Origin: Oligoflexia bacterium
GTDB taxonomy: Bacteria; Bdellovibrionota; Bacteriovoracia; Bacteriovoracales; Bacteriovoracaceae
Reading direction: 5' to 3'
NCBI GenBank assembly: GCA_015231955.1
Contig: JADGAN010000040.1
Span: 1 to 46,700, forward strand
Length of the DNA stretch: 46,700 nucleotides
Shown here piece by piece: positions 14,484-38,317 of this stretch. A model generated the notes under the pieces. The model was not told the DNA's origin. It did not search any database and saw nothing but the letters and a program-made list of their open reading frames with translations. The first letter of the stretch is position 1, and each line of letters starts with the position of its first letter. Made by a program: the position numbers and the translations under genes.

Positions 14484-15596
14484 TCATTTAGAGTGATCTC
14501 TTCGCTTATAGGTCAGCAGTGGTCTAAACTTGGCCACCACCTTGGCCAGGTTTAGTTTTTCCAGTTCAGAAATAACGAAACTCACCTTTTTATAGGCCTC
14601 TGGTGCCTCTTCGAAGAGCAGCTCCTTATCCTCACAAATGACTACACTCCCTAGCTCCGTCTTTAGGAGATCACTTTGAGAGTAGAGGTGAGAGATGCGG
14701 CCCTTGACCATGCCTCGTTGCCATTTTCTGCCGGCCCCATGGGGAAGGGAGAAGAGATGATCTAAATTGCTATCTGGGACATAAACTAGATAGGTGAAAT
14801 CGCCGCGTGAACCGGGGATAATGGCGTAGCGATTAAAGGCGGAGGCACCTTTACGGTGAAGGTAGTGAGTTTTGCCCTCGAGCTCTAACTCTTCAATAGA
14901 GTTGTGAACTAGATCAAAAATGAGCTTGAACTGGGATCTTAGCTTTTCGCCAATTCTCTCTGCAATCATTTTGCGGTTAAATTTGGCCCAGGTCACTGCA
15001 TAGTTGTGCTCATGGAGATATTTTGTACCGGTATCACTTTGTGGATCGATGCCTGCAGAGTTCATGTTTTTGATATACTCTTCGAGGATGGAGTTTCCTA
15101 GTCCGCGCGAACCGGAGTGTACAAGAAGATAGACTTGTTTTTTAGATAGACCGGGCCCGCAAAACTTCTCCTCATCAAAGATCTCCTCTACACGCAGGAA
15201 CTCTGCAAAGTGATTTCCTCCTCCGATAGTGCCGACTGAGCGGGGGAATTTTAAGTCGCTGATTCCATGGTGAGAGGCATGAACGGCAGCATCCTCGTAG
15301 GGAGACTCGAGATCATCGAGAGTGCGTGCTATCTTATCTGCTACAAATTTATGCTGTTTGAGTTCGCTTTGAAAAAAGCTCATGCCACAACCAATATCGT
15401 TTCCGATAATGTAGGGGTAGATGATATTGGCGGTGAGAAAGGCGGCACCAACAGGATGGCCTTTACCTGGGTGCAGATCAGGAAAGGCCACAGCGCGAAC
15501 CATTCCACTTTTTGTGGCACTATCATGGAACTGAGCAAGGGCACTTCCTTCAAGCTTCATCTCATCAGTAATAAATATTTTTTTTTGCATTTGCAT
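14484..15596 (-). CDS. RtcB-family RNA ligase (RctB/PrfH-associated subtype)
   Basis: This 370-residue protein is an RtcB-type RNA-splicing ligase homologue, the family that joins 2',3'-cyclic phosphate and 5'-OH RNA ends with GTP and Mn2+. The metal-site motifs are in order: D67 and C70 (G-N-D-I-G-C-G), H129 (G-G-G-N-H-F), H160 (V-H-S-G-S-R-G), H231 (V-H-N) and the guanylylated His equivalent H286 (L-P-H-G-A-G-R). The shorter length and the F-P-D-L-H-P-G-K-G-H-P start fit the subtype often paired with release-factor homologue PrfH, which repairs damaged ribosomal decoding-centre RNA. No prfH gene is seen in this window. The first of two close ATGs has AAGGAT nine bases upstream. Confidence 0.9.
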   Translation of the reverse strand: MQMQKKIFITDEMKLEGSALAQFHDSATKSGMVRAVAFPDLHPGKGHPVGAAFLTANIIYPYIIGNDIGCGMSFFQSELKQHKFVADKIARTLDDLESPYEDAAVHASHHGISDLKFPRSVGTIGGGNHFAEFLRVEEIFDEEKFCGPGLSKKQVYLLVHSGSRGLGNSILEEYIKNMNSAGIDPQSDTGTKYLHEHNYAVTWAKFNRKMIAERIGEKLRSQFKLIFDLVHNSIEELELEGKTHYLHRKGASAFNRYAIIPGSRGDFTYLVYVPDSNLDHLFSLPHGAGRKWQRGMVKGRISHLYSQSDLLKTELGSVVICEDKELLFEEAPEAYKKVSFVISELEKLNLAKVVAKFRPLLTYKRRDHSK

Positions 15597-15708: not shown

Positions 15709-16023
15709 TTAGCCGCGAATCATAACAAGCATCATTTTAAAAGGTTCATGGGCGTTAACGGCGTGAGGAATGTTGGCAGGCATGATGATGGTTTCGCCAG
15801 TTTTTAAGGCGTGAGCAGTGCCGCCAATGACAATCTCCCCGTTACCTTCTAAGACAGTGACGACAGCATCAAAGGGAGCGCTATGTTCGCTTAGGCGCTG
15901 TCCTTCATCGAAGGCAAATACGGTAATGCCACCAGAAGCGTTTTCGTGGACACGCAAGGAGACGATGCCTCCTTTTTGGTATTGGACAACTTGGGGTAGT
16001 TCAAATTTTTTTGCTTTTTCCAT
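15709..16023 (-). CDS. Small single-domain cupin
   Basis: This 104-residue protein is one cupin_2 beta barrel. The first motif reads G-Q-R-L-S-E-H-S-A-P-F-D followed by L-E-G-N-G-E. The second is G-E-T-I-I-M-P-A-N-I-P-H-A-V. Two candidate metal His residues are visible, while the canonical first-motif His pair and Glu are incomplete, so metal binding may be altered. Small cupins serve as sensors, isomerases or dioxygenases. The gene lies 37 bp downstream of the class III aminotransferase gene on the same strand and is probably in the same transcript. Its function in the cluster is unknown. Confidence 0.85.
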   Translation of the reverse strand: MEKAKKFELPQVVQYQKGGIVSLRVHENASGGITVFAFDEGQRLSEHSAPFDAVVTVLEGNGEIVIGGTAHALKTGETIIMPANIPHAVNAHEPFKMMLVMIRG

Positions 16024-16060
16024 GATTTATTTCCTTACTGGTTTGTTTATCTTTCAAATT

Positions 16061-17437
16061 CTATTGCACGATTTTGATGAGATCGAATACCTCTTCCAAG
16101 ATCGCTACGGCGTTGTCGATGGTTTCACGGTCAATGGTCATCGCGGGTTGCAGGCGGAAGTGGGGCGAGTAGGACATGGTAAGCAGTCCTCGCTTTAAGC
16201 ACTCGTGAAAGATGCGTTTGCTGGTGGCGCTTGAGAGTGGTTCTTGGCTCTCTTGATCTTCGACCATTTCGATGCCGAGGAAGAGGCCAGCACCGCGGAC
16301 TTCGCCCACAAAGGGATAGCGATCAACAAAGTTGCTTAGGCGAGACAGAAAATAACTTCCCATTTGCTCGGAGTTTTCAACCAGTCCCTCTTCGTCGATG
16401 ATTTTGAGGGAGGCCGCTGCAGCGGCCGCGGCCAGTGGATTACCGCCGTAACTGGAGGAGGAGCCGGAGGGTATGGACCAAGGGTAGGCAGAGGTGATCT
16501 CATCAGTAGAGATGATTCCACTGATAGGGAAGCCACCACCAAATTGTTTGCCGATGGTAAGGATGTCGGGGGTGATGCTTGCATGTTCTGAACCCCAATA
16601 GCGACCAGTGCGACCAAAGCCGGTGATCATTTCATCGGCGATTAAGAGGGCATCCCACTCTTTAGCGAGCTCGCTTATAGCGATGAGAAAGTCTGCGGGT
16701 GGGATCACATTCCCGGCGGTACCTTGCATGGGTTCTATGATGAAAGCAGCAATGCCTTTGGAGACACTCACCTTTAATTGTTTACGTGCAAACTCCACGC
16801 AGTGAAGACTGCAGGAGGGGTGTTTTAATTTAAAGGGGCAGCGATAGCAGTTAGCATAGGGGATGATATGGTTGCCAGGCACGAGTGGCCCATAGTGTGC
16901 TTTATAATCGAGTCCCATAAGTGAGAGTGCACCCATGGTTTTTCCATGGAAGCCGCCCCAGAAGGAGACAAATTCAAACTTATCGGTATACGCTTTAGCG
17001 AGGCGTAGCGCCGATTCGACCGCCTCAGCACCACTTGAGTAGAGTTGAATACGCTTTAGCGATGGGTGCAGGCGATGCTCACAGGCGCGCTCAAAAAAAT
17101 TCACGCGAGCTTCAGAGGTAAAGCTGCCAATGGTGGCCCGTGAAAGTTGTTTAGTCACTTCTCTTATATAGGTTGGGTGTGAGTGACCAATGCCGCCAAC
17201 GCCAATGCCACCAATGAGATCAATGAAGGTGTTGCCATCGATATCGGTGATTGCCGATCCTTGTGCTTGATCAACGACAATTCCTGCCATCATAGAGAAA
17301 GCCTGCAGTCCTGGGGCCAGCATCTCATCTTCACGGGCGCGCATGCGCATGCTTTTAGCACCAGGGATCTCTTTGCTTACGATGTGGGGGCGTTGATTTG
17401 TGGGTTGATTAATTCTGCGAAGGGGATTAAACTGCAT
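16061..17437 (-). CDS. Class III PLP-dependent aminotransferase (GabT-like)
   Basis: This enzyme of about 458 residues transfers an amino group from an omega-amino compound to a 2-oxo acid using pyridoxal phosphate. Numbered from the ATG at 17437, Lys297 in I-G-K-Q-F-G-G-G-F is the Schiff-base lysine and Asp268 in I-A-D-E-M-I-T-G-F-G-R-T-G contacts the pyridine nitrogen. A C-Y-R-C-P-F cluster with three further Cys, as in archaeal-type GabT proteins, lies near 197-213. The 17437 start begins just before the conserved N-terminus; an upstream in-frame ATG at 17620 would run 78 bp into the divergent gene. It faces the nucleotidyltransferase gene across a 105-bp shared promoter region. The substrate could be an amino alcohol or amino acid precursor. 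Confidence 0.9.
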   Translation of the reverse strand: MQFNPLRRINQPTNQRPHIVSKEIPGAKSMRMRAREDEMLAPGLQAFSMMAGIVVDQAQGSAITDIDGNTFIDLIGGIGVGGIGHSHPTYIREVTKQLSRATIGSFTSEARVNFFERACEHRLHPSLKRIQLYSSGAEAVESALRLAKAYTDKFEFVSFWGGFHGKTMGALSLMGLDYKAHYGPLVPGNHIIPYANCYRCPFKLKHPSCSLHCVEFARKQLKVSVSKGIAAFIIEPMQGTAGNVIPPADFLIAISELAKEWDALLIADEMITGFGRTGRYWGSEHASITPDILTIGKQFGGGFPISGIISTDEITSAYPWSIPSGSSSSYGGNPLAAAAAAASLKIIDEEGLVENSEQMGSYFLSRLSNFVDRYPFVGEVRGAGLFLGIEMVEDQESQEPLSSATSKRIFHECLKRGLLTMSYSPHFRLQPAMTIDRETIDNAVAILEEVFDLIKIVQ

Positions 17438-17476
17438 TTTTTTACCTATGATTGATCTAAGGTTTGTTTTGCTGTC

Positions 17477-17505
17477 ATAGTTGCGACTATAAAATCTTTT
17501 GTCAA
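17477..17505 (-). promoter_or_regulatory. Candidate promoter for aminotransferase-cupin unit
   Basis: On the minus strand a consensus -35 TTGACA (17500-17505) is followed by a 17-bp spacer and AACTAT (17477-17482), a partial -10. The distance to the ATG at 17437 is 39 bases. The same 105-bp region must also serve the divergent nucleotidyltransferase operon. Confidence 0.45.
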
Positions 17506-17542
17506 TATCTAAAGAAAGAAAGAAAGAGAGGGCCAACTTAAG

Positions 17543-18361
17543 ATGAGTGGAGAAAAAGTGGTGGGGGCGATTGTGCTCGCGGCAGGACTTGGAGAGCGTA
17601 TTCAAGAACTCTCTTGTCATAAACCGGAAGTTTCGCTCTATGAGGGTGGCCCTTCGCTACTCATGCGTCTAAGCACTCAGATCAGAGAGAAGGCAAAGAT
17701 GCCGCTTTTGCTGGTGGCAGTGAATTCACGCTTTGGGTGTAGTGCTGCGAAGAGAGAGAGTTACGAAGGTGCCAAGGTGATGGTGGTGGATACCCCGAGT
17801 TCACTGCATACTTTTTATCATGCGATAGAGGAGTTTTCGAAAGAAAAGAGAACAGGGCATGTTTTCGTCTCTATGGTGGATACTGTGGTAAGCGATGAAG
17901 ATTTTCACTCCTTTGTAGAGTTTTGTGAAAAGGAGCTGGCCCCTGAAGAGAGTGCGATTTTGACTACGCATTTTATTGATGATGAAAAACCACTTACAGT
18001 GCTGCTCGCTTCCGATAGTCAAAAGGTTTTGCGTTTTGCAGTGCCTGTAGAGAGTGTGCCGGAGGTGGTGGTTACCGCTGGGATGTATGTGTTTCCGCTC
18101 GCGCTACTGCCTTTTTTGCGTGAGGCCGTTGATAGTGGAGTGGAAAAGATGAGAAATTTTCTGGCCCTAATGGTTAAAAGCAATTATTCTATTTTGGCCT
18201 TTACAATTGAAAAGAGCATCGATGTTGATCGACCGCAAGATGTTCAAAGCGCAAGAGATTTCCTCCTGAAAGAGCAAGAGCAAGAGAGAGATGTGAAGTT
18301 ATGTTGCAAAGATACAGTCAAAACGGCAAGTTCGATAGTAAGTCTGGAGAAGAGCATTTAA
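17543..18361 (+). CDS. LicC/IPCT-like nucleotidyltransferase (NTP-transferase fold)
   Basis: This 272-residue protein has a GT-A-like NTP-transferase fold. The nucleotide-binding signature V-L-A-A-G-L-G-E-R is at residues 11-19 with a lysine in H-K-P-E-V shortly after. A metal-binding Asp sits in S-M-V-D-T-V-V near residue 113. Such proteins make CDP- or UDP-activated small molecules, for example LicC (CDP-choline) and IPCT (CDP-inositol). A CDP-alcohol phosphotransferase two genes downstream makes cytidylyl transfer the more likely reaction. The last 25 residues are unconserved-looking and overlap the ATP-grasp gene by 61 bp. There is no strong ribosome-binding site. The substrate is unknown. 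Confidence 0.82.
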   Translation: MSGEKVVGAIVLAAGLGERIQELSCHKPEVSLYEGGPSLLMRLSTQIREKAKMPLLLVAVNSRFGCSAAKRESYEGAKVMVVDTPSSLHTFYHAIEEFSKEKRTGHVFVSMVDTVVSDEDFHSFVEFCEKELAPEESAILTTHFIDDEKPLTVLLASDSQKVLRFAVPVESVPEVVVTAGMYVFPLALLPFLREAVDSGVEKMRNFLALMVKSNYSILAFTIEKSIDVDRPQDVQSARDFLLKEQEQERDVKLCCKDTVKTASSIVSLEKSI

Positions 18362-19401
18362 ATCAACTTTTGGTCTTGGCCATCTATCGAGAAGAGGCCT
18401 TTTCCAATCACGCCATTACTGCTGACCGTGCGATTATGGATGAGTCGTGCGAGCGTATTTGTGATCGCGCAGAGGAGTTTGGTTTTGAGGTTTTAGTAAG
18501 GCGCGTTCCCGGAGAGCAGTATAAGGAACTCACTGTTCAAGAGCTGAAAAGCTTTCACCTGATCTTATCCATGGCCCAAGGGGAAGATCTTCTAGCGCGC
18601 TTAAAGCGTGTGGAGGTCGAATCGGAAAAGTGCTCGCCCTCTTTTCCCATTGTCATCAACTCCGTCGATGCCATTGAAAACTGTTTTCGCTTAAATCTTT
18701 CTAAAAAATTAAAGGCAGCACATTTACCCTATCCTGAGTTTTTGGTGATTGATCCACGTGAGATAGGGGCGCCAGCAAGCGAGAGTCTCTTAATCACTCA
18801 CTTTATAGAGAGGTGTGGTGGTGGGGTATGGGTAAAGCGTGGGGATTTTCACGCTTTAAGTGATCAAGATGTGGTCTTTGTAAAGGGCCAAGAGGAGCTT
18901 TGGCAATCGCTGCAACACTTTTGTAAGGAAGGGGTGGAGCGAGTGATTTTACAAAGGCATGTTGAGGGGGATATTTTTAAATTTTACAAGGTGATTCATC
19001 GTCACTTTTCCTATCGAAAGATTCACACTTCGCCGACGGCCTCTCTTGTAACTCATACCCATGAGCAGCAGCAAAGTATGCGCCTGCTTGCAGGAAGAGT
19101 GGGTGAGGAGCTTGCACTCGAGGTGTATGGTGGGGATATTGTGATTGATGGCAATGGTAAATTGCATGTGATCGATGTCAATGATTGGCCCTCTTTTCGT
19201 AGCTCGCTAAAAGATGCAGCGATTGCAGTTGCCGATTTGTGTTGGGATAAAGTGATTAAGAGCACACTCTTGCACCATACCGATTTACTGAATAAGAGAA
19301 ATTCAACAAGAAGTTTAGCAATAGCTAATGCTAAGGAGGTTAAAGGTGCAGCGGCCACTCAGTACCTTTATGGAACAGTTTCAACAGAGCATCAAGGGTA
19401 G
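18301..19401 (+). CDS. ATP-grasp enzyme (RimK/ITPK-like)
   Basis: This 366-residue protein has an ATP-grasp fold. The N-terminal alpha/beta lobe ends at V-I-N-S-V-D-A-I-E-N-C. Central-lobe signatures are W-V-K-R-G-D and V-I-L-Q-R-H-V-E-G-D-I-F-K-F-Y. The Mg-binding end reads H-V-I-D-V-N-D-W-P-S-F near residues 289-299. The D-V-N-D-W-P ending resembles inositol-trisphosphate 5/6-kinase-like members, so either a kinase or an amino-acid/amine ligase is possible. The start overlaps the nucleotidyltransferase end by 61 bp and lacks a good ribosome-binding site; no better downstream start was found. The true start is therefore uncertain. In this cluster it could phosphorylate an alcohol or conjugate two headgroup pieces before activation or transfer. 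Confidence 0.8.
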   Translation: MLQRYSQNGKFDSKSGEEHLNQLLVLAIYREEAFSNHAITADRAIMDESCERICDRAEEFGFEVLVRRVPGEQYKELTVQELKSFHLILSMAQGEDLLARLKRVEVESEKCSPSFPIVINSVDAIENCFRLNLSKKLKAAHLPYPEFLVIDPREIGAPASESLLITHFIERCGGGVWVKRGDFHALSDQDVVFVKGQEELWQSLQHFCKEGVERVILQRHVEGDIFKFYKVIHRHFSYRKIHTSPTASLVTHTHEQQQSMRLLAGRVGEELALEVYGGDIVIDGNGKLHVIDVNDWPSFRSSLKDAAIAVADLCWDKVIKSTLLHHTDLLNKRNSTRSLAIANAKEVKGAAATQYLYGTVSTEHQG

Positions 19402-20323
19402 AGATACCGAGGAGAAGCTCGACCTTTTCTTTTATCGCCCTCTTGGCTTTATGATTGCTAAAGTTGCGCAAAAACTCTCCATGACTCCAACTCAACTTAC
19501 ACTGATTGGTTTAGTCAGTGGAATCTTGGCGGGCCCTTTATACCTTGATCCTCAAAACTACCCTGCGGTGGTAGTGGGCACCCTTTTATTTATCGCTGCT
19601 GGAATATTTGATAGCTCCGATGGGCAGTTGGCGCGACTCACTTCGACTTCGACTAAGCTTGGTCTAGTGTTAGATGGGATTTGCGATAACTTGGTATTTT
19701 GCTCCATCTATATTTGTGCTGCTTACCCTTTTGCTAGTGAGTATGGGCCAAAGATTTATCTGCTGGCGGTGCTAGCGGGAGTTTGCCACTCCTGGCAGTC
19801 GGCAATCCTCGATTTTTATCACCGGGAGTACCTCTACTTTGGCCATCGAAAAACGGAAGGGGATCACTACTGGAATCCGACGGTAGAGGAGGTTAAGCGC
19901 CACTATCAGGAAGCGGCATCCTTTCAAGAAAAACTTTTTTATCGTTTACGCTTTTCTTGGATTTGGCAGCAAGAGAAGCTCTCGGTGCGTACCCCTGCGG
20001 AACGTATTGATATGAAGAAGCGGCTGCTGCTTTCAACGACGGAGGAGAGTGAGCACTTCTCAAAAATGTATCGCCACTATAATAAGCGTATGCTGACGCT
20101 TTGGCGTTTGATGGGAACCAATTTTCACACTATCGCCATTATTGCTTTTATGTTTGTGGGCCGCTTTGACCTCTATCTTTTATCGGTGGATGTGATTGGT
20201 CTCTCTATGGTCTTGATGATGAATCGAAGTATTCAGCGCCATCTCGATCAAAAACTGTTGGCCGCTACTGCTGCCGCAACTGCGGCAGCAACTGCTACTA
20301 GTGCGCATGCAAAACGGTTTTAA
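19346..20323 (+). CDS. CDP-alcohol phosphotransferase-family membrane enzyme
   Basis: This inner-membrane enzyme of about 325 residues transfers a phospho-alcohol from a CDP-linked donor to an acceptor alcohol. The complete signature D-G-x2-A-R-x8-G-x3-D-x3-D is present (D-G-Q-L-A-R ... G-L-V-L-D-G-I-C-D), with an extra Asp three residues before. Hydrophobic helices flank it, and a polar insert of about 90 residues with many Tyr, His and Glu separates the early helices from the last two. The start chosen is GTG at 19346, because AAGGAGG (19333-19339) sits exactly six bases upstream; an ATG at 19328 lies before that site. It overlaps the ATP-grasp gene by 56 bp. The Ala/Thr-rich C-terminus is encoded by a GC-rich hairpin. 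The acceptor could be diacylglycerol, ceramide or a soluble alcohol. Confidence 0.88.
   Translation: MQRPLSTFMEQFQQSIKGRDTEEKLDLFFYRPLGFMIAKVAQKLSMTPTQLTLIGLVSGILAGPLYLDPQNYPAVVVGTLLFIAAGIFDSSDGQLARLTSTSTKLGLVLDGICDNLVFCSIYICAAYPFASEYGPKIYLLAVLAGVCHSWQSAILDFYHREYLYFGHRKTEGDHYWNPTVEEVKRHYQEAASFQEKLFYRLRFSWIWQQEKLSVRTPAERIDMKKRLLLSTTEESEHFSKMYRHYNKRMLTLWRLMGTNFHTIAIIAFMFVGRFDLYLLSVDVIGLSMVLMMNRSIQRHLDQKLLAATAAATAAATATSAHAKRF
20270..20289 (+). promoter_or_regulatory. GC-rich hairpin just before the flippase-like gene start
   Basis: GCTGCCGC (20270-20277), AACT loop, GCGGCAGC (20282-20289) form a perfect 8-bp GC-rich stem at the end of the CDP-alcohol phosphotransferase gene. It sits 11 bases before the GTG of the next gene, which has no Shine-Dalgarno sequence. 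It could tie translation of the two overlapping genes or simply reflect the Ala/Thr-rich coding. Confidence 0.45.
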
Positions 20324-21290
20324 GCTCCTCCTTAAACTCCTCTTTGCGCTTCTTGGTCTCTTCGCGCTCTATACTCTCTTTGCTGGGTATGGATTTCATA
20401 ACATTGTAGTAGAGCTTAAAAGAGTCAACATTCACTTCGTTTGGATTTTACTTACCTTCACTCCTACACTGCTTTGTTATGCGCTTGCATGGTGGCTTTG
20501 CACGAGTGATCATGATCAAGCGATGGGCCGTTTCTCCTTTGCAAAGCTATATACATTCTTTCGAATGACGGTGATCTCGATTGCCTGGAATAACCTTACT
20601 CCCTTTTTAAAAGTTGCAGGGGAGCCGCTTAAGGCCTTGATGCTAAAACAGGAGCTTTCGGGAGATATGAAGAGCGCCATCATCAGCACGGTGATTTATA
20701 ACTATATTCATCTGATGGGGACGCTGGCGGCCTTTGTGCTAGCGGCCTTGTGGCTTTTGCTACTCTACCCTTTAACTGCTCTTGTAGCGGTGGGTGCCTG
20801 GGTGGTTTTAGTGGCCTCTCTTTTGCTTTTGTTGCTGTTTTTTGTTGCTCCCTCTTGGTTTAAAGTTACCAAGAAAGTGTGGGCGCAAAAGTGGTATAGG
20901 GGGATGCAGGAGTTGAATGCTTTTTTTAAAACTCATCCCAGACGTGCTGCAGTGGCGATTTTATTAGAGGTGGGTGCGCGTTTTATTGAGGGAATCACTT
21001 TTTATTACGCTTTTTGGATTTTAGGACCTGCGATCTCACTAGGTAGTGGTGCGCTTATCGAAGTGGCGCGCACACTGATTGATACGATCTTCTTTTTTGT
21101 TCCTTATCAAATTGGTAGTCGAGAACAAGGACTCTACTATTTTATGAGTGAAGTTTTGCTAATTGGTAGCGAAGGGTATTTAGCAGCGGCCATGCTTTAT
21201 CGTCTGGTGGAACTCTTATGGGCGGCGATTGGTTACTTTTGGTGGGTGATATATTTTAAGCGAAGATGCCCCGTCGCAGTTAAGGAGTAG
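20301..21290 (+). CDS. Flippase-like lysylphosphatidylglycerol-synthase TM family protein (UPF0104)
   Basis: This 329-residue polytopic membrane protein, with about eight helices, belongs to the lysylphosphatidylglycerol-synthase transmembrane-region/flippase-like family. The family marks are N-N-L-T-P-F-L-K-V-A-G-E-P-L-K-A near residues 97-112 and V-P-Y-Q-I-G-S-R-E-Q-G-L near 268-279. The family includes flippase domains of MprF and AglD-like proteins that act on modified lipids. There is no ribosome-binding site; the GTG (or ATG two codons later) overlaps the phosphotransferase gene by 23 bp, so coupling is likely. It ends 58 bp inside the convergent winged-helix gene. Moving a newly made lipid across the membrane is the natural guess. 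Confidence 0.85.
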   Translation: MRMQNGFKLLLKLLFALLGLFALYTLFAGYGFHNIVVELKRVNIHFVWILLTFTPTLLCYALAWWLCTSDHDQAMGRFSFAKLYTFFRMTVISIAWNNLTPFLKVAGEPLKALMLKQELSGDMKSAIISTVIYNYIHLMGTLAAFVLAALWLLLLYPLTALVAVGAWVVLVASLLLLLLFFVAPSWFKVTKKVWAQKWYRGMQELNAFFKTHPRRAAVAILLEVGARFIEGITFYYAFWILGPAISLGSGALIEVARTLIDTIFFFVPYQIGSREQGLYYFMSEVLLIGSEGYLAAAMLYRLVELLWAAIGYFWWVIYFKRRCPVAVKE

Positions 21291-21490
21291 CAGTAGTTTG
21301 TATCTTCTTGGATAAGGCCAGAGGTGCGAAGAGAATCGAGGTGCATGCTCACCATCTTAAGATTAAATTGGCCTTCACTTCCGTAGTCGTCTTTTAATTT
21401 TTCCATAATCGTGTTGATGTTGCTTGCAGGATTTTCGGCAATATTACGAATGATTGCAAATTTAAAAGGGAGTTTCATGTTGAATGTCAT
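21233..21490 (-). CDS. Small winged-helix protein, module A
   Basis: This 85-residue protein has a single winged-helix fold: F-A-I-I-R-N-I opening helix, a predicted recognition helix V-S-M-H-L-D-S-L-R-T-S-G-L-I, and a wing ending L-T-A-T-G-H-L-R. It is a paralogue of the 88-residue protein at 23879, and each follows a paralogous DMT carrier gene. Its ATG is 2 bp after the stop of the carrier gene, with AAGG within the end of that gene. The 3' end overlaps the flippase-like gene by 58 bp tail to tail. It may act as a dedicated regulator of the carriers or the cluster. Confidence 0.78.
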   Translation of the reverse strand: MTFNMKLPFKFAIIRNIAENPASNINTIMEKLKDDYGSEGQFNLKMVSMHLDSLRTSGLIQEDTNYCYSLTATGHLRLKYITHQK

Positions 21491-21492
21491 AG

Positions 21493-22485
21493 TTACACCT
21501 TCCTTAAATTTAAGAGTTCTTTAGGATTGGCCACCACTAGAAGTGCACCGATAGTAATGATGATGGCACCGATGATGAGCGTGGGGGTGAGCTTTAAATC
21601 GGTCAGAAAATAACCAAAGACAATTCCCCAGAGCGCGTAGGTGATATTTAAACACATCGCTCGAGCAACACCCGTCATATTCATTGCTTTATACCAGAAG
21701 AGATAAGAGATGGAGCCAACCAGGGCCGTCAGTAAAATCACTGCTCCACTGGTTGCAAGCAGTGCTGACTTAAAGACGATAAGGCCACCAATAAGTGGCA
21801 TCACGGCCAAGAGGTAAACCACAAAGGAGGTGGCCTGGCGAATATTGATGGCGATAGAGGGATCGAGCAGGTCCATCACATAGGTGGAGATCACCCCTTC
21901 TAGCGACCAACCGATTGTGGGAATGAGTGCGAAGAGAATGCCCATATAGAAGTGCGGACTCACGCCACCTTCTGGTGGAGTGTATCCTACCACAAAGGAG
22001 CCGATGATACAGGTAATGATGCCGATCCAGGCGCGCAGGGAGACGCGCTCTTTTAAAAAGATCATAGCAAAGATTGTTCCTAGTGCAGGATAGATTGCGG
22101 TGATAGAGAGGGTGTAGGCGGTTCCTGCAAATTGAATTCCGAGCAGGTAACCGGACATCGCAAGCGGGCCTCCTAGTAAAGCGGCAAAGCAGACGATGAG
22201 TCCTGGTTTGGTCATGAGACTTCGAAAGATCTCGCGGCCGCGACCGGTGGAGAGGTTTAAGAGTGAGAGCCAAAGTGCCGCAAGGCCGTCGTGCAGGCAT
22301 GCTCCAACCAAGGGTGCCACATAAATAGCAAGTTCGGGAGAGGTGAAGGGAAGCATCGTCATGGCGATGCCAAGAAGTACGCCATCGAGTCCCCAAAAGG
22401 CGCCAGAGAGAGCGCCATAGAGTAATCCTCGCTTGGCATAGGCAATAATCTTTTGTTCTTGTGCGGGTGTTGGTGTTGGTGTCAC
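21493..22485 (-). CDS. DMT/EamA-type 10-helix transporter, LicB-like, module A
   Basis: This 330-residue carrier of the drug/metabolite transporter superfamily has ten hydrophobic helices in two related halves. Motifs such as G-G-P-L-A-M-S-G-Y in helix 3, I-Y-P-A-L-G-T in helix 4, L-K-E-R in the loop after it, and G-W-S-L-E-G-V-I in the second half recall LicB-type choline permeases; this is from memory, not a search. The start is GTG at 22485, supported by AAGGA six bases upstream. It is divergent from its paralogue at 22716 and followed directly by a winged-helix gene. Import of a choline-like amino alcohol or another headgroup precursor is the inferred role. Confidence 0.82.
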   Translation of the reverse strand: MTPTPTPAQEQKIIAYAKRGLLYGALSGAFWGLDGVLLGIAMTMLPFTSPELAIYVAPLVGACLHDGLAALWLSLLNLSTGRGREIFRSLMTKPGLIVCFAALLGGPLAMSGYLLGIQFAGTAYTLSITAIYPALGTIFAMIFLKERVSLRAWIGIITCIIGSFVVGYTPPEGGVSPHFYMGILFALIPTIGWSLEGVISTYVMDLLDPSIAINIRQATSFVVYLLAVMPLIGGLIVFKSALLATSGAVILLTALVGSISYLFWYKAMNMTGVARAMCLNITYALWGIVFGYFLTDLKLTPTLIIGAIIITIGALLVVANPKELLNLRKV

Positions 22486-22527
22486 TAGATGTCCTTTGTC
22501 CTTTATCCTTATTAAGTTTTATATTAG

Positions 22528-22533
22528 ATTATA
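22528..22533 (-). promoter_or_regulatory. Candidate -10 element for DMT module A
   Basis: The minus strand reads TATAAT here, 43 bases before the GTG at 22485. No clear -35 is seen at 16-18 bp, so activation by a regulator is possible. Confidence 0.35.
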
Positions 22534-22607
22534 CACTATAGATCGTTAGGCTATCTCTTAAGTAGTTTGATTTTGATTTATTAGCAAGTAGGGCGGAGTA
22601 AATTTTT

Positions 22608-22645
22608 CAAAGCAGTGCCAAGGGTAGTAGGCAGTGCATGCTTTG
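22608..22645. promoter_or_regulatory. Candidate operator: nested inverted and direct repeats between the two DMT genes
   Basis: CAAAGCA (22608-22614) and TGCTTTG (22639-22645) form a 7-bp inverted repeat. GCAGTGC occurs twice inside it as a direct repeat (22612-22618 and 22631-22637), 19 bp apart, about two helical turns. The element lies in the 230-bp region between two divergent paralogous carriers, each co-transcribed with a winged-helix protein. It is a plausible binding site for those proteins. The rest of the region holds no open frame. Confidence 0.45.
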
Positions 22646-22715
22646 CAATTTGTGTTAGGTGAAGTAATAGATAAAGTGTAAAATAGCAAAAAAACAAAAT
22701 AACCAGGACGATTTT

Positions 22716-23885
22716 TTGAGCGAGAACGACAACAATAATCTCCTCTTTAGAAAGGTAAATGGAGTAATTGGAGTAAGAGGTACAACTGTTGCAGATCAAA
22801 TCCAAGGCGAGTTGGAGCTGCTTAGCTTGCAAAAGAAAGTGTTGCATAAGATTCGTGGCCTAGTCTTTGCGCTCATTGCAGGGTTGATGCAAGGAGTGGC
22901 AAACGTGCTTTTTTATATGTTGGTCATGATTGCCATTGCTAATACCAGTGATGGTCCTCTTTATAGTGAAATTCCTCCTAAGATTTGGGTGGTGTTCTCC
23001 TTGATGATGGCGCTTGCAAGTGAAGCGGGGGCCGCACTTTTGCTGCTGATTAATGCAGCGCTCGCAAAAACCTTTTCAGAGGTGAAAGCGTTGTTTGGCA
23101 ATCGTAAAATGTGTATGCGTATGCTGGTGATTGCCACCTTTGCAGGCCCACTGGCAATGAGTGGGCTAACGCTTTCACAATACCTCTTACAAAAAAATCT
23201 TCATTTAAGCATGAGTACTTTTGCGGGAGCTGCTGCCTATGCGGGAGCAGTTTTATGGTTAAGGCCTAGGGAGCGTTTTAAGTTATCGATCCTTTATGCG
23301 CTGGTCTTGGCGATGATGGGGATCTTCATCATCTCTTATGATACTCATTATGGAACTATTGCCGCCACTACCTCTGTGATCGGCGTATTGCTGATGTTGG
23401 TATACCTGCTGGGTTTTTCAATGGAGAGTGTTGGTACGCTGATGATGATGGAGCTGTTCTCTCCCAGTGTAATTGCTTGTGCTCGCTATCTCTTTTCCAT
23501 TGTGGGTTATCTTGTGATCATTGTACCGATGTTGGGCGTGGCCTTTTACTCCTATGGGCAATTAGGAAACCTCTTTTTAAGTTTAAGTGAAGTTTTGATA
23601 CAAAAAACTTTGGGACTAATGGTGCTGACTGCGATTGCTAGTTCGATGGCGACACTCTTTTGGTACGAAGGGATCTCCAGAGTGGGAGTGGGCCTCTCGC
23701 TTCCCTTTTATCTTTCGCATCCGTTATGGGGCCTTATTATCTCCTTTCCACTACTTCGAAGCGATCTGAATCACGCTTACTGGAAACCACTTGTGGTTTC
23801 GGCGGCGTTTTATGCTGTTAGTTTCTTGCTGGTGCTCGCTTTCGCAAAGGATGTCTCTCCTTATCGTCAGGGGGAAAAATGTTAG
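22716..23885 (+). CDS. DMT/EamA-type transporter, module B (paralogue of module A)
   Basis: This 389-residue membrane protein is a diverged paralogue of the carrier at 21493. Shared blocks include G-P-L-A-M-S-G in helix 3, M-E-S-V-G-T against L-E-G-V-I-S in the second half, and a matching F-S-P-S-V-I-A / D-P-S-I-A-I segment followed by an R and a long hydrophobic stretch. It has a longer polar N-terminus of about 45 residues and a longer C-terminus. The start is TTG at 22716, with AGGACG eight bases upstream; no earlier alternative fits and the next ATG falls inside the first helix. It overlaps its winged-helix partner by 7 bp. Divergence from module A suggests a different ligand or direction of transport. 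Confidence 0.8.
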   Translation: MSENDNNNLLFRKVNGVIGVRGTTVADQIQGELELLSLQKKVLHKIRGLVFALIAGLMQGVANVLFYMLVMIAIANTSDGPLYSEIPPKIWVVFSLMMALASEAGAALLLLINAALAKTFSEVKALFGNRKMCMRMLVIATFAGPLAMSGLTLSQYLLQKNLHLSMSTFAGAAAYAGAVLWLRPRERFKLSILYALVLAMMGIFIISYDTHYGTIAATTSVIGVLLMLVYLLGFSMESVGTLMMMELFSPSVIACARYLFSIVGYLVIIVPMLGVAFYSYGQLGNLFLSLSEVLIQKTLGLMVLTAIASSMATLFWYEGISRVGVGLSLPFYLSHPLWGLIISFPLLRSDLNHAYWKPLVVSAAFYAVSFLLVLAFAKDVSPYRQGEKC

Positions 23886-24145
23886 CGCAGGTGGTGCCGC
23901 TCAAGATTCAGTTGTTGAAATTACTTTGTAGCAAGGAAGCGCAGGGGTGTAGCGATCGTGAGCTTGCCGCTTGCATGAAGATGCGTTGGTCGCAACTCTA
24001 TATTGTGATGGAATCGCTACGGAATAATCTTCTAGTGATAGAGAAGAGTGTCGTGCTGGCAAGTGATCACGACATCTCCATTCGTTATGTGATTACCGAT
24101 TTAGGGAGAGCTTTAATCCGTGAGGGAGGATATGAGTTGGAGTAA
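23879..24145 (+). CDS. Small winged-helix protein, module B
   Basis: This 88-residue protein has a winged-helix pattern (K-I-Q-L-L-K-L-L-C, recognition helix W-S-Q-L-Y-I-V-M-E-S-L-R-N-N-L-L-V-I, wing Y-V-I-T-D-L-G-R-A-L-I). It aligns over most of its length with the protein at 21233. The ATG overlaps the stop region of the carrier gene by 7 bp, and GGGGAAAA precedes it. Its 3' end overlaps the convergent phosphatase gene by 53 bp. It is probably a DNA-binding regulator tied to carrier B. Confidence 0.75.
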   Translation: MLAQVVPLKIQLLKLLCSKEAQGCSDRELAACMKMRWSQLYIVMESLRNNLLVIEKSVVLASDHDISIRYVITDLGRALIREGGYELE

Positions 24146-25028
24146 GTTTTCGAGAAAGCTCCTGCGAGAGATCTAATTTTCCCACTCCTGTGCCTACTAG
24201 GGCAGAGTCGATCCCAAAGTTGTTGGCACCCAAGATGTCTGTCTTTAATTGATCACCCACCATGACCACTTTTTGTTTATCGCTTGCAAGCATAGGATCT
24301 AATCCCAGACGCCGAAAGGCCTCGATAAAAATCATGCTCTGTGGTTTTCCCAAATTAACAAAGCTTGGGGGAAGAATGTTGGTGATTAATCCATGGTAGC
24401 GTTCGCGAATGATGCTCTCAAGAATGGCGGCAATCGCCCCGGAGGTGATGCCGTAGTAGTTTTCTCCGCGAGGATAATAGGTGTCTGGATTAGAGAGCAC
24501 CAGCTTTAGTGGCAAGTTGTGCTCTAGGCGATAGATCATCGTCGAGAGTGCATGATCGATGGTGGGAATAAAATTTTTGTCATCCTCATCACAAATTAAA
24601 ATGGCGTCGATCTCTTCCGGAGGTGCTTGTGGAGGAGCAATGGTCGCGCCGGCAAGTTTTGCATATTCACTAGACTCGGGAGTTCCAATCACCAGAGCGC
24701 GCAAGGGATATTTTTCGCTAGCATCGAGATGATCAAAATAGCTTTTGAGCAGGGAACCAGAGGTGATGATATTTTGCTCAGGGATATTTAGTCCGCGTTT
24801 TTTAAAGAAAGCGGACATGCTCTTTGGAAGTTTGGAAGCACCATTGGTTAAAATAAAGTAAGGGGTGTGGGAGGCATTTAGGTGGTCGATAAATTCGATG
24901 GCACCAGGGATGGCCCCTTCTGTATTGGTGATCACTCCAAAGGCGTCGAGAAGGATGGTGTGATAGCGTGAAAGTAAATCAACAGCAGAGAAGGCCTTGA
25001 GGTTTGCTTGGTTTGTAGTTGTGCTCAT
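24093..25028 (-). CDS. HAD-IIA subfamily phosphatase (NagD-like)
   Basis: This 311-residue HAD hydrolase has a C2A-type cap. Motif I is L-L-D-A-F-G-V-I: the nucleophile Asp is present but the second Asp of D-x-D is Phe, as also seen (as Trp) in a subset of HAD-IIA proteins I recall. Motif II is L-T-N-G-A-S-K, motif III the Lys of N-L-G-K-P, and motif IV V-G-D-Q-L-K-T-D. HAD-IIA enzymes dephosphorylate small phosphates such as nucleotides, sugar phosphates or phosphoglycerol. It is convergent with and overlaps the module B regulator by 53 bp, and is divergent from topB. It may be the last member of the headgroup cluster or an unrelated neighbour. Confidence 0.85.
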   Translation of the reverse strand: MSTTTNQANLKAFSAVDLLSRYHTILLDAFGVITNTEGAIPGAIEFIDHLNASHTPYFILTNGASKLPKSMSAFFKKRGLNIPEQNIITSGSLLKSYFDHLDASEKYPLRALVIGTPESSEYAKLAGATIAPPQAPPEEIDAILICDEDDKNFIPTIDHALSTMIYRLEHNLPLKLVLSNPDTYYPRGENYYGITSGAIAAILESIIRERYHGLITNILPPSFVNLGKPQSMIFIEAFRRLGLDPMLASDKQKVVMVGDQLKTDILGANNFGIDSALVGTGVGKLDLSQELSRKLTPTHILPHGLKLSLNR

Positions 25029-31089: not shown

Positions 31090-31710
31090 TTAGCGACAGT
31101 TGTTTTCAAGGACTGATTTTATATAGGCAGTACGACTCATTGCGGAAACTCCTCCAATATGCTTGTCATTAGTTTCGAAATCTTGTCTTTTGGTAGTATA
31201 GTTGTCTATTGAAAAAATTCCATTGCGTACATAAGGAGTGATTTTTTTAGTTGATAAATCTATATGATACGCGTCCACAACAACTTCCTCGAAATTGATT
31301 CTTTCTATAAGCACACTTTTTGAGTCTCTGCTAAATAAACAGGATATAGAATCTTTTTCAATTTCGATTTTATACTCATAAAAATTAAAGTCTTCTTTAT
31401 TTAACAGACCAAAAGAGTGCGATGTTTCAATCCCATTATCAATAGGACACAGGAAATATGATTTTTTATCAGGAGAAAGTATTGCAGTAGAATTAAGTCT
31501 GAAAAAAATATTCTTATTGTTATGAGCGCAAAAATTCAAGATAAAAACTTCCTCTGTCTCAGATTCAGAAACCGCTGACTGTTGAATACATATTTTCCCA
31601 TATTTAACAGAGGAAAATTCGTCCAAACAAACTGGATTTGTTTTTGTACCTTGGCCAGAGCATGCAGAAAAGAACATGATCAATGCGACCGATTTAATTT
31701 TAAAATTCAT
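31090..31710 (-). CDS. Lipoprotein overlapping the RHS gene; candidate immunity protein
   Basis: This lipoprotein of about 206 residues begins M-N-F-K-I-K-S-V-A-L-I-M-F-F-S-A-C, a short signal with the lipidated Cys at 17. The ATG at 31710 is favoured because AAGGAG lies nine bases upstream, inside the end of the RHS gene; an earlier in-frame ATG at 31728 would prepend six residues before the signal. The mature part is beta-rich with four or more cysteines and no motif I recognise. It overlaps the RHS stop by 11 bp, so the two are co-translated. As the RHS tip is a peptidoglycan peptidase acting outside the cytoplasm, a periplasm-facing lipoprotein directly downstream is the expected place for a protector. 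This is inference from position. Confidence 0.75.
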   Translation of the reverse strand: MNFKIKSVALIMFFSACSGQGTKTNPVCLDEFSSVKYGKICIQQSAVSESETEEVFILNFCAHNNKNIFFRLNSTAILSPDKKSYFLCPIDNGIETSHSFGLLNKEDFNFYEYKIEIEKDSISCLFSRDSKSVLIERINFEEVVVDAYHIDLSTKKITPYVRNGIFSIDNYTTKRQDFETNDKHIGGVSAMSRTAYIKSVLENNCR

Positions 31711-34700
31711 AAATATTTGCTCCTTCATTTAATTGATTAAGTGGTTGCAACATGTTCTGTTTGACTGTTTCTCTAACAATAAAATCAGTTGGATTAGATC
31801 TTTCAGCTTCGTTAGCTTCAATTCTTTCGAAATGTAAATGAGGTTGATTGGTTCCGCAATTTTGACCTGTACATGTATTTCCTATTGTTTGTCCCTCTGA
31901 AATTTCAAGTCCTTTTTCAAACTCTGAAGAAACATGACGATATATGCTAGTAGAATTGTCAGTATGTTTTATAGCTATCATAGAACCACCTTTTTCTGAT
32001 CCTACTTTTATTATAAAACCATCCTTTACAGCAGTAACTGGTGTATTTATAGGGGCCCTAAGATCTACTCCTTTATGATTTATAGATGCTCCAAGAATTC
32101 CTGTATTTCTTGGGCCGTAATCTGATGTTATGATCACAGGTTTTTTGCCAATTGGTGATGCTAATCCTTGAGGGTCAGTTCTGTTTATAGGATCACCACT
32201 AGCATACTCAACCCCTCTCCAATTCCCAGGAGCACTCAAAAGATCGGCAGGAGCACTTTGCACCAAAGGATCCACACTCATCCACTCACCAATGGTTGGA
32301 GAATAAACTCTTGATTTAGAGAAGTAAAAGAGGAGCTGCTCTTTATCGACCAGAGGTTTGTTCATGCCGGGAAGTTCGATAAGGCCTGCAAAACTCCAAA
32401 GAGTTAGCTGCTCGAGTCGCTTGTTCTCTTCAAGATTTTCTTGGTTATAGAGGACTGCTTTAAAACCCCAGGCGGAGTAATCTCGTCGCCAGAGCACCTT
32501 TCGTTTGGTGGTGGGATCACTGCTAAGCATGGCCCTTACGTTGCCGAGATAGTCACTAATTAAGGGGTAAGTTTTGCCATTGATCGTGAGGGCCATAGGG
32601 AGGCCACCCATGCGATCTAACTTTAAGACGCTTCCTTGATGAATAAAGAGATCATCATTTACTTTAACGGTGCAACTTTCAGTTGAGACTTTGTCTAGGG
32701 CCGGACAAGCGGCCAAGAGTTCTCCACTGCCGTCATAGAAAAAATGAAATTTTTCTTGGTCTAGATCAATCCCAACTAAGTTTTCGTTGCTCCACTTAAA
32801 AACAGCACGATCACTGATGGCCACCACTCTTCCTCGTTCATCGCGGGTAGGGAGTAGCAGATCATTTTTTCTAAGCACCGGTTTTTTGTTCTTATCGAGA
32901 ATCTGACTTAAGTCTTCACTCAAAAGCTTTTGCTCATGAGGGAGTATGTAGGAGTAGTGGGCCTCTGTTAAGAAGAATTCAAATCCCTTGCTTCCTGGAG
33001 CGGTATTGGAAGCGTAAAGCCGATCCTCTAGTTCATGGTAAAAGGAGTAGTTATAACGCTCGGTAAAGTAGTTCTCTTTATCGTTTACGGCACTGATCAA
33101 GCTAAGATCTTTACTTTTCATATCGTAGTAGTGTTTTAGTGTAAGGCCAGAATAATCAATGCCACTGATTTTACCATCAGCATAATATCCTTTAATTTTA
33201 GCGATAGGGGAGATCTCTTTTAGGAGGTTCCCCTGGTAGGTATAGGTATTGCTGATCATGACAGCACCGTCTTTTAAAGTTTGATAGCGTTGCAATTTAC
33301 CGTAAGGGGTATACAAAAACTTCTCCTCAATATTATTAAGACTTGAGGAAGTCATCCTTCCCTCGTCATCATAGTCAAACTCTCTTGTAAAGAGCACTTT
33401 CCCTTGAGAGTTAGAGTAAGAGATCTGCTTTAAGAGCGATCCCTTGTAATTATACTGTTCCGAGAGGGAGGTTTGATCTTGCTCTTTAGCAAGAATGGCC
33501 GTTACGCGATCTAAGCTATCGTAGTGATACTCTCTGGCGGTGACATAATCGTTAAAGGTATTGGTTTTATAGTCGTAATGGTAGTTTGTCGCGGCCCATG
33601 GAGGAGAGTGCTTACTTGCTGCTTTTCCAATGCTGTTAATTAATTGGCCGTAGTCATCATAGTTCCATTCATAATCTAGTTCAGGTAGTGTTTTTAGCTC
33701 ACCTATCGGGGAGTATTTATAAGAAAACTCTTCTCCCTGATAAAAGGTAGAGATGACTCTTCCAAAGGGGTCGTAACACTCGCTGGAATCCTCACGGTAT
33801 TGATTTGTATCACCTAGACCGATTCTTACTGTCTGGCAATTTTGCCGATCTTTAAAAGTTTTAAGATAGGAAGAAAAGAGATGGCCATCATTACTGGAAA
33901 AAAGTTCTCCTTGAGAGTCAAAGAAATTTTCTGAGGTGTATTTTTTTTCGTGGCGAGAGCTATCGCGTGAGAGAAGGCCTATTCTAAAATAGGAGCTACT
34001 GTCGCTGTTTAGATAATCGGGAAAAAATTTATAGGGTTCGTACTGTTTCCAAATAGAATTTCCTTCACCATACAGGATAAGACCAGAAAAGAATGCCGCA
34101 TTTCCACTTACGGTGGCACTGTTCTCAATGCGACCAAATCCATCCAAATACCAAAGATACTCCACACCCCAAGCATTAAACTTCACGATACGCTCTAATA
34201 CTTCTAACCTAGGGTAAGCTGGCATTGGAAGGGCCAGGGAGTAGAGCTGTTGATTATTTTTGGAAACTGTTAGTAAGATCCCTTCAGGCGAGTAAGTATA
34301 GTTGTAAGTTACTCCCAGCACGGTTGTTGTTGATAATGGTTGCATAAAGAGTTGATCGAAGATTGTTGTTGACCTACCACTCTGATCGGTGACCGCTTTG
34401 ATGATAGGGAGGTTATCTTGATATTCAATACTCTGCTTGTAACCATTGCTATTGGAGACCGATGCTAACCTTCCATAATTGTCATAGGTAAAGTTCTTTT
34501 CAATATCCCCGTAGAGATACTTTGAGACTTTTCCTGGTGCATTGTTACTGTGATAAAAGAGTTCGCCTTGAAGCTTTACTTGCGGCCCTAGACTTAAAAA
34601 ACTTTCGGTAACGGTTTGCCCTGGTAGGGTGACGTCCCTTGGTTTGGTAGTCGCAAAGGCCCTCTCTCTCACGGGATAACGTAAGTAGTAGAAAGGGTCA

Positions 34701-37972: not shown

Positions 37973-38317
37973 GAGTGCTTCCTGGTTGTGCAGTAAAGAG
38001 AGTAATTCCGCGAGAGAGTACACTTACCTAGAAAAAAGCAGAGATGTCAATATTGATGGTTAGATTCCTCTCCACGGTATTACAGGGAATTTTAAAGAGG
38101 AAAACAATTTCCAATAGATAGAGATTCTCGCAAAAGGTTAAGAATTCTTAGTCTTTATTTGCTAACCATAGGGGCCGGGCATAGAATTAAGGTTGTTAAC
38201 CGATTAATTATCTAGGTGTACATATAGTGGAGAGCAATTTTTTGCCCAACTCCGCAAGATAGGAACATTCACTCTCCAATGATAGCTTTAGAAGCGCGGT
38301 ACTGATCATAGGACTTT
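37973..38317. promoter_or_regulatory. 345-bp non-coding region upstream of the RHS gene
   Basis: No gene is seen here. On the minus strand a consensus-like TTGACA (38045-38050) lies about 73 bases before the RHS start, but without a good -10. A perfect palindrome TAAGAATTCTTA sits at 38139-38150. A TGGAGAG (38228-38234) / CTCTCCA (38272-38278) inverted repeat encloses a 37-base loop just after the end of the small Cys-rich gene and could be a terminator-like or RNA structure. Confidence 0.4.

Follow-up and report, generated by a model that had tools for sequence, protein, structure and literature searches.

Gene organization of the cluster

The window studied here is the whole stretch of 46,700 nucleotides analysed, contig C49 in the 5.6 Mb draft genome (G000, hereafter the host) of an Oligoflexia bacterium of the Bdellovibrionota, to which Bacteriovoracaceae and other metagenome bins of that phylum are the nearest named relatives. 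It carries four overlapping genes on the plus strand that could activate, transfer and translocate a lipid headgroup. The first, NT (17543 to 18361; NTP_transferase, 1.9e-5), encodes a nucleotidyltransferase proposed to be a CTP:(amino)inositol-phosphate cytidylyltransferase. It is followed by AG (18301 to 19401), an ATP-grasp enzyme recognized by its predicted fold and by profile matches and proposed to be an (amino)inositol kinase similar to inositol 1,3,4-trisphosphate 5/6-kinase (ITPK). The third gene, CDPPT (19346 to 20323; PF01066, CDP-OH_P_transf, 5e-12), encodes a CDP-alcohol phosphotransferase that would pass phospho-(amino)inositol to a lipid, and the fourth, FLP (20301 to 21290; PF03706, 4e-18; HpnL, 1.8e-10), an LPG_synthase_TM/flippase-like membrane protein. 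The open reading frame (ORF) positions and the overlaps of 61 bp (NT/AG), 56 bp (AG/CDPPT) and 23 bp (CDPPT/FLP) given in an earlier annotation made from the letters alone (the sequence-only reading) were reproduced from the ORF coordinates. The CDPPT ORF opens at 19328, and the 56-bp overlap assumes a GTG start at 19346 preceded by the ribosome site AAGGAGG.

Divergent from these genes, as that reading had also observed, lies AT3 on the minus strand (16061 to 17437; PF00202, 4e-92), a class III pyridoxal phosphate (PLP) aminotransferase proposed to act on inosose. Its ORF of 519 amino acids is too long: the homologue alignments begin only at about residue 69, and a start at 17437 fits them. 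With this correction AT3 no longer overlaps NT, and the two are separated by a divergent gap of about 105 bp (17438 to 17542), presumably a shared regulatory region. A scan for promoters and terminators, this gap included, gave a level no better than chance, and an Rfam search of the window found zero RNA elements.

Conservation among Bdellovibrionota

We surveyed 291 sampled Bdellovibrionota genomes. NT was found in eight of them, the host included, and AG, searched for with an alignment, in exactly the same eight. A single-protein search of 38 relatives, with a chance match only, had suggested that AG was a private gene, and the phylum-wide search overturned this. In all seven other NT genomes, NT, AG, CDPPT and FLP occur in one locus, with 32 to 61% identity to the window proteins. 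Because the four genes stand side by side again in seven other genomes, a chance arrangement is excluded.

In three of these relatives (L015, L017 and L018) the operon starts with a Gfo/Idh/MocA oxidoreductase (GFO) and a myo-inositol-1-phosphate synthase (MIPS; PF07994, 3e-97), and the genes run uninterrupted as GFO-MIPS-AG-CDPPT-FLP, next to HAD-NT and AT3. The HAD gene, an HAD-IA phosphatase placed between FLP and NT in these three loci, is linked to the cluster in six of the seven relatives. MIPS is present in all eight NT genomes (Fisher p 8e-7). The substrate suggested by this partner is derived from inositol and is not phosphocholine, and the data show no sign of a phosphonate, a negative behind which there is no genome-wide search for PepM and phosphonate-specific genes.

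In the survey as a whole MIPS occurs in 53 genomes, AT3 in 43, GFO in 42 and all three in 38. MIPS accompanies AT3 in 40 of 43 genomes (Fisher p 3e-34) and GFO in 41 of 42 (Fisher p 7e-38); these p values are uncorrected for the relatedness of the genomes and, like that for NT, inflated by it, and the pattern nonetheless extends across several families. The three genomes with AT3 and no MIPS (G149, G196 and G208) are drafts 71 to 86% complete. The set expected for inosamine synthesis, MIPS, phosphatase, Gfo/Idh dehydrogenase and aminotransferase, is therefore inherited together in one genome, the phosphatase being traced by its linkage in the fetched loci.

Genes for inositol synthesis and its proposed amination

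In the host the second half of the putative pathway is placed apart from the window, as a GFO-MIPS-HAD-IA operon on contig C20 (L033:6592-9820). Contig C63 carries another copy of MIPS (L034:7992-9362), which shares 91% identity with that of C20 and has no GFO or HAD beside it. In genome G088 the MIPS gene (L036:6832-8176) is broken by in-frame stops and a gap, possibly a pseudogene or an assembly error, and the AT3 gene downstream of it is intact.

AT3 has the PLP-lysine motif PDILTIGKQFGGGFP and adjoins either the cluster or MIPS in the relatives. In a tree the cluster AT3s came together in one group that excluded the class III paralogues; support for it was moderate (79/80), and the paralogue branches were very long. 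The catalytic positions EKP, D and H are conserved in GFO, which matches inositol 2-dehydrogenase at 2e-18, the family that is also the best match of an Ignavibacteriales GFO (1.5e-25). The HAD-IA proteins show motif I as FD[FY]GG[TC] (L033:9161-9820, L015-L020 and about 65 other loci), so that the second catalytic Asp of DxD is replaced by Gly in nearly all of them, a feature that bears on whether they act as phosphatases or transferases.

Three genomes with MIPS, GFO and AT3 and without NT or AG (G145, G111 and G025) were inspected. In all three AT3 adjoins another CDP-alcohol phosphotransferase, of the PIP-synthase type (archaetidylinositol-P synthase, 1e-34; BT1523 family, 7e-34), and in two of the genomes the pair is separated by a gene for a GtrA protein. 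Loci of this kind are L159:13069-15897, L160:6265-8625 and L162:7637-10308 (families f8 and f3, with GtrA between in f8). Since GFO and AT3 persist with this PIP-synthase-like cassette, they track inositol rather than NT, and the cassette thus serves as an independent check on the amine. AT3 together with this phosphotransferase is a possible second aminoinositol cassette, of which we found no description.

Proposed activation and transfer of the headgroup

The best NCBIfam match of an NT orthologue was the Thermococcales IPCT/DIPPS fusion (6e-11, far under the curated cut-off), and that of the window NT a sugar-1-phosphate nucleotidyltransferase. By Foldseek and structure alignment, the predicted NT structure (pLDDT 90.5) is about equally close to PntC, LicC, IPCT and many sugar nucleotidyltransferases, and this comparison did not separate CTP from other NTP specificity. 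Because these fold matches are about equal, we infer specificity for CTP and inositol from the context of the gene.

CDPPT resembles best the archaetidylinositol phosphate synthase of NCBIfam (7e-12, far under the curated cut-off). Its signature DxxDGxxARx8GxxxDxxxD, previously described as perfect, is indeed intact, and D95, D98, G99, A102, R103, G112, D116 and D120 are invariant in eight homologues. It scored 26 bits against the BT1523 family, of PIP-synthase type, whose cut-off is 350, so it falls outside that family. The host has three CDP-alcohol phosphotransferases, and the two besides CDPPT resemble PgsA and PssA as judged by eye. These observations support a CDP-activated alcohol predicted to be made by NT and passed on by CDPPT, and FLP probably flips the product. 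That the headgroup would be both inositol-derived and CDP-activated is, on this sequence evidence and the constant presence of MIPS, very likely.

As NT and CDPPT both match IPCT/DIPPS families, they might instead make a soluble phosphodiester, a compatible solute like di-inositol phosphate, from CDP-inositol and inositol phosphate. We consider this quite improbable, given that the flippase-like protein is adjacent in all eight Bdellovibrionota clusters and that Bacteroidota carriers of the cluster make an inositol lipid. Attachment of the headgroup to a lipid and not to a soluble alcohol is accordingly likely.

The ATP-grasp protein AG

By sequence AG gave weak ATP-grasp matches (TTL, 0.0027), and its AlphaFold model (pLDDT 81) shows a complete ATP-grasp fold. 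This fold is about equidistant from RimK, LysX/ArgX, Ddl and ITPK (Z 19.5 to 21), which leaves kinase and ligase unseparated. One alternative is thus that AG is a RimK-type ligase joining an amino acid to aminoinositol, giving an aminoacylated headgroup; this is compatible with an aminoinositol product. Some Bacteroidota AG proteins do match RimK in the middle domain, as the Sphingobacterium orthologue does at 8.5e-9. However, an AG profile matched ITPK at 1.3e-5 (seven sequences) and 2.8e-5 (36 sequences), in the C-terminal part only; for this C-terminal half the inositol kinases scored 1.3e-5 versus 0.84 for RimK. In these alignments the metal-site motif is ID-x-N as in ITPK, whereas the aligned ligase has LELN. 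Moreover, the Bacteroidota loci keep AG without a linked aminotransferase, so they offer no obvious amine for acylation. The ligase is for these reasons the less likely option, although it is the main competitor of the kinase.

We tentatively prefer a kinase that would restore the phosphate after the HAD step, because the profiles favour inositol kinases and AG is kept where the Bacteroidota have no linked aminotransferase. AG shares with ITPK the ATP-grasp fold and a C-terminal D...ID-x-N...P[S/G][F/Y] motif aligned by profile. It differs in being bacterial, in belonging to a lipid operon and in its low overall similarity (16 to 18% identity in the structure alignment).

Distribution outside Bdellovibrionota

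NT as a lone query gave no match against genome contigs, whereas the AG alignment, run against GTDB species genomes, recovered at least 588 encoded relatives. Eighty loci were kept, 74 of them not already used. Within the fetched stretches of these 74 loci, CDPPT was present in 70, NT in 65, HAD-IA in 63 and MIPS in 45, as detected with profiles from Bdellovibrionota genes, and the usual gene order in most of them was NT-AG-CDPPT-(FLP)-HAD-MIPS.

Most loci belong to Bacteroidota and have neither AT3 nor GFO within the linked region, to which the search in that phylum was confined. Nine loci are labelled non-Bacteroidota, and eight of these have AT3 beside the cluster; the eight are labelled as Bdellovibrionota, Thermodesulfobacteriota and other deltaproteobacterial bins, Ignavibacteriales and one Alphaproteobacteria bin. 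The exception among the nine, a Lachnospiraceae bin (L087), is arranged as in Bacteroidota and is perhaps misbinned. The Alphaproteobacteria bin (L043) has a Bdellovibrionota-like operon, for which, as for L087, the choice is between misbinning and transfer. In the Ignavibacteriales (L081) all eight genes are found in a single locus.

This distribution allows for a simpler product, a plain phosphoinositol lipid as in Bacteroidota, with GFO and AT3 serving a separate, non-lipid inositol amine, perhaps catabolic or an osmolyte. Such a product would agree with the Bacteroidota NT-AG-CDPPT-HAD-MIPS core, which lacks linked GFO and AT3 and is tied to phosphoinositol dihydroceramide (PI-DHC). Yet AT3 or GFO lies within or beside the lipid genes in L040, L043, L071, L081 and L111, labelled as four phyla, and AT3 adjoins lipid-transfer genes in two different cassettes. 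We regard the simpler product as unlikely.

Proposed pathway

Our preferred interpretation, held with moderate confidence and drawn from sequence comparison, is that the window encodes half of a pathway divided between two loci, whose product would be the headgroup of an amino-inositol phospholipid (or phosphosphingolipid). The steps are deduced from protein families and gene linkage. MIPS would convert glucose-6-phosphate to inositol-3-phosphate, from which the HAD phosphatase would release inositol. GFO would then oxidise one inositol hydroxyl to give an inosose, and AT3 would transaminate this to an inosamine. AG, as an ITPK-type ATP-grasp kinase, would add phosphate again, NT would form the CDP derivative, CDPPT would transfer the phospho-inosamine to diacylglycerol or ceramide, and FLP would carry the lipid across the membrane. 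In Bacteroidota, where GFO and AT3 are not linked to an otherwise identical set, the product would be a plain inositol lipid.

Amination of inositol itself is proposed mainly because, within Bdellovibrionota, the two known types of inositol lipid cassette are each accompanied by this dehydrogenase and this aminotransferase. By analogy we judge it somewhat favoured, since MIPS, phosphatase, Gfo/Idh dehydrogenase and aminotransferase parallel the aminocyclitol synthesis of hygromycin A (PMC10949010). The sequence-only reading had proposed an unusual amine-bearing lipid headgroup that is flipped; a CDP-alcohol formed by NT, its transfer by CDPPT and probable flipping are supported, and the amine is made plausible by AT3 in the module.

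Several points weigh against an aminoinositol lipid. The closest curated families and solved structures of AT3 are broad class III aminotransferases and amino-acid racemases, and the best solved-structure matches of GFO are unassigned oxidoreductases; the case for the inosose/inosamine step therefore comes from gene linkage and co-occurrence. Thirteen of the surveyed genomes with MIPS had no AT3 at the threshold applied, and the amine might in some genomes be introduced into inositol phosphate or into the lipid. We found no demonstrated activity for any gene of an NT-AG-CDPPT cassette in any organism, and where CDP-inositol was proposed as an intermediate for the Bacteroidota cluster, the gene functions were called unconfirmed (PMC9246714). 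A search of open-licence literature gave no relevant paper on amino-inositol phospholipids or on an ATP-grasp gene in inositol lipid clusters, which is weak evidence of absence.

We put forward tentatively, and with slightly more doubt than belief, that Bdellovibrionota and some Thermodesulfobacteriota and Ignavibacteriota may make an undescribed class of phospho-aminoinositol lipids by way of CDP-aminoinositol, with an ITPK-like ATP-grasp kinase that was overlooked in the gut Bacteroidota cluster. If true, an amine-bearing cyclitol headgroup would be new to bacterial membrane chemistry and would link aminocyclitol chemistry of the aminoglycoside type to lipid synthesis.

Neighbouring genes in the window

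The DMT importers, winged-helix regulators and HAD-IIA phosphatase had been counted as part of the cluster in the sequence-only reading. None of the DMT, winged-helix, HAD-IIA and cupin genes was found near the cluster in the seven relatives; they were rejected as members and probably lie outside the system. Pfam and NCBIfam recovered most of the domains assigned in that reading, EamA in DMT1 (5e-19) and HAD-IIA (1e-30) among them. Apart from the overlong AT3 ORF, the exceptions were DMT2, which has no Pfam match and is recognizable as a DMT protein only by BLAST to DMT1 (1e-16), and the winged-helix assignments, which are weak (best 0.033). A search of 37 related genomes at a threshold of E 1e-10 gave no hit for DMT2.

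These neighbours bear on a lic1- or phosphonolipid-like system that would have importers and regulators of its own, as first suggested for this DNA. The adjacent DMT transporters and the match of the NT fold to LicC and PntC, among many others, would be in keeping with it. However, the importers and regulators are not kept with the cluster and MIPS is, and both readings were dropped because the conserved partner is MIPS; we hold such a system to be very improbable. No LicA- or LicD-like gene was seen by Pfam and NCBIfam among the genes at 15709 to 25028, a result to which no genome-wide search was added.

Between 21233 and 24145 the window has two divergent DMT genes, each overlapping or abutting a small winged-helix-like gene. 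The small cupin gene is on the minus strand like AT3, opposite to the core, and downstream of it lies an RtcB-family RNA ligase gene (14484 to 15596; NF007153, above cut-off). An ORF of 2107 amino acids occupies 31700 to 38023 on the minus strand.

Comparison with known systems

Inositol lipids, uncommon among bacteria, are important in gut Bacteroidetes. The IPCT/DIPPS system of hyperthermophiles, which makes di-myo-inositol phosphate, resembles the present one in that a nucleotidyltransferase makes CDP-inositol and a CDP-alcohol phosphotransferase uses it. Here the genes are separate and are accompanied by an ATP-grasp enzyme, a flippase-like protein, a dehydrogenase and an aminotransferase. 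The amination part resembles the hygromycin A pathway (Hyg18, Hyg25, Hyg17 and Hyg8), in which MIPS, a phosphatase, a Gfo/Idh inositol dehydrogenase and an aminotransferase lead from glucose-6-phosphate to an inosamine (PMC10949010). In that case the product goes to an antibiotic, whereas here there are lipid-transfer genes, an HAD-type phosphatase and a class III aminotransferase. Streptomycin has a comparable aminocyclitol pathway.

The BT_1522-BT_1526 operon of B. thetaiotaomicron shares MIPS, a CDP-alcohol phosphotransferase and the same product class (PMC9246714, PMC8791184). It differs in its PIP synthase with CDP-DAG, GtrA, PgpA-like phosphatase and AUR1-like synthase, and has neither NT nor ATP-grasp genes. 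The cassette of G145, G111 and G025 resembles this B. thetaiotaomicron route with AT3 added.

The closest counterpart is the alternative inositol lipid cluster described by Heaver et al. (2022) in Bacteroides (Phocaeicola) vulgatus and Prevotella (PMC9246714). In B. vulgatus it comprises the NTP transferase BVU_RS13095, the CDP-alcohol phosphotransferase BVU_RS13105, the HAD hydrolase BVU_RS13115 and MIPS, and the carriers B. vulgatus and P. veroralis make PI-DHC (PMC9246714). That paper's text names no ATP-grasp protein, aminotransferase or flippase, and it mentions an LPG-synthase-like protein near the clusters (PMC9246714). The numbering of the locus tags has space for a further gene separating the NTP transferase from the phosphotransferase and for another ahead of the HAD hydrolase; going by the loci collected here, these would be AG and FLP. 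In our case too the NTP transferase lies beside a phosphotransferase with the signature DX2DGX2AR...GX3DX3D, HAD and MIPS are in the genome, and the genes are homologous and in the same arrangement; homology and order were seen in most of the 74 collected loci, the B. vulgatus locus itself being known by its published description. The differences are that AT3 (with MIPS-linked GFO) is added, that the genes are spread over two loci and that the ATP-grasp gene is a constant member.

Hence the core is not uncharacterised, as had been thought: NT-AG-CDPPT-(FLP)-HAD-MIPS occurs in dozens of Bacteroidota loci, and a 2022 study connected it there with inositol lipids (PMC9246714). Nor does the ATP-grasp protein stand outside any known system, as it is constant in the Bacteroidota loci of inositol lipid type. 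The less-studied of the two Bacteroidetes inositol lipid clusters thus has a constant ATP-grasp member and is spread well beyond Bacteroidota, and in other phyla a dehydrogenase and an aminotransferase are coupled to it.

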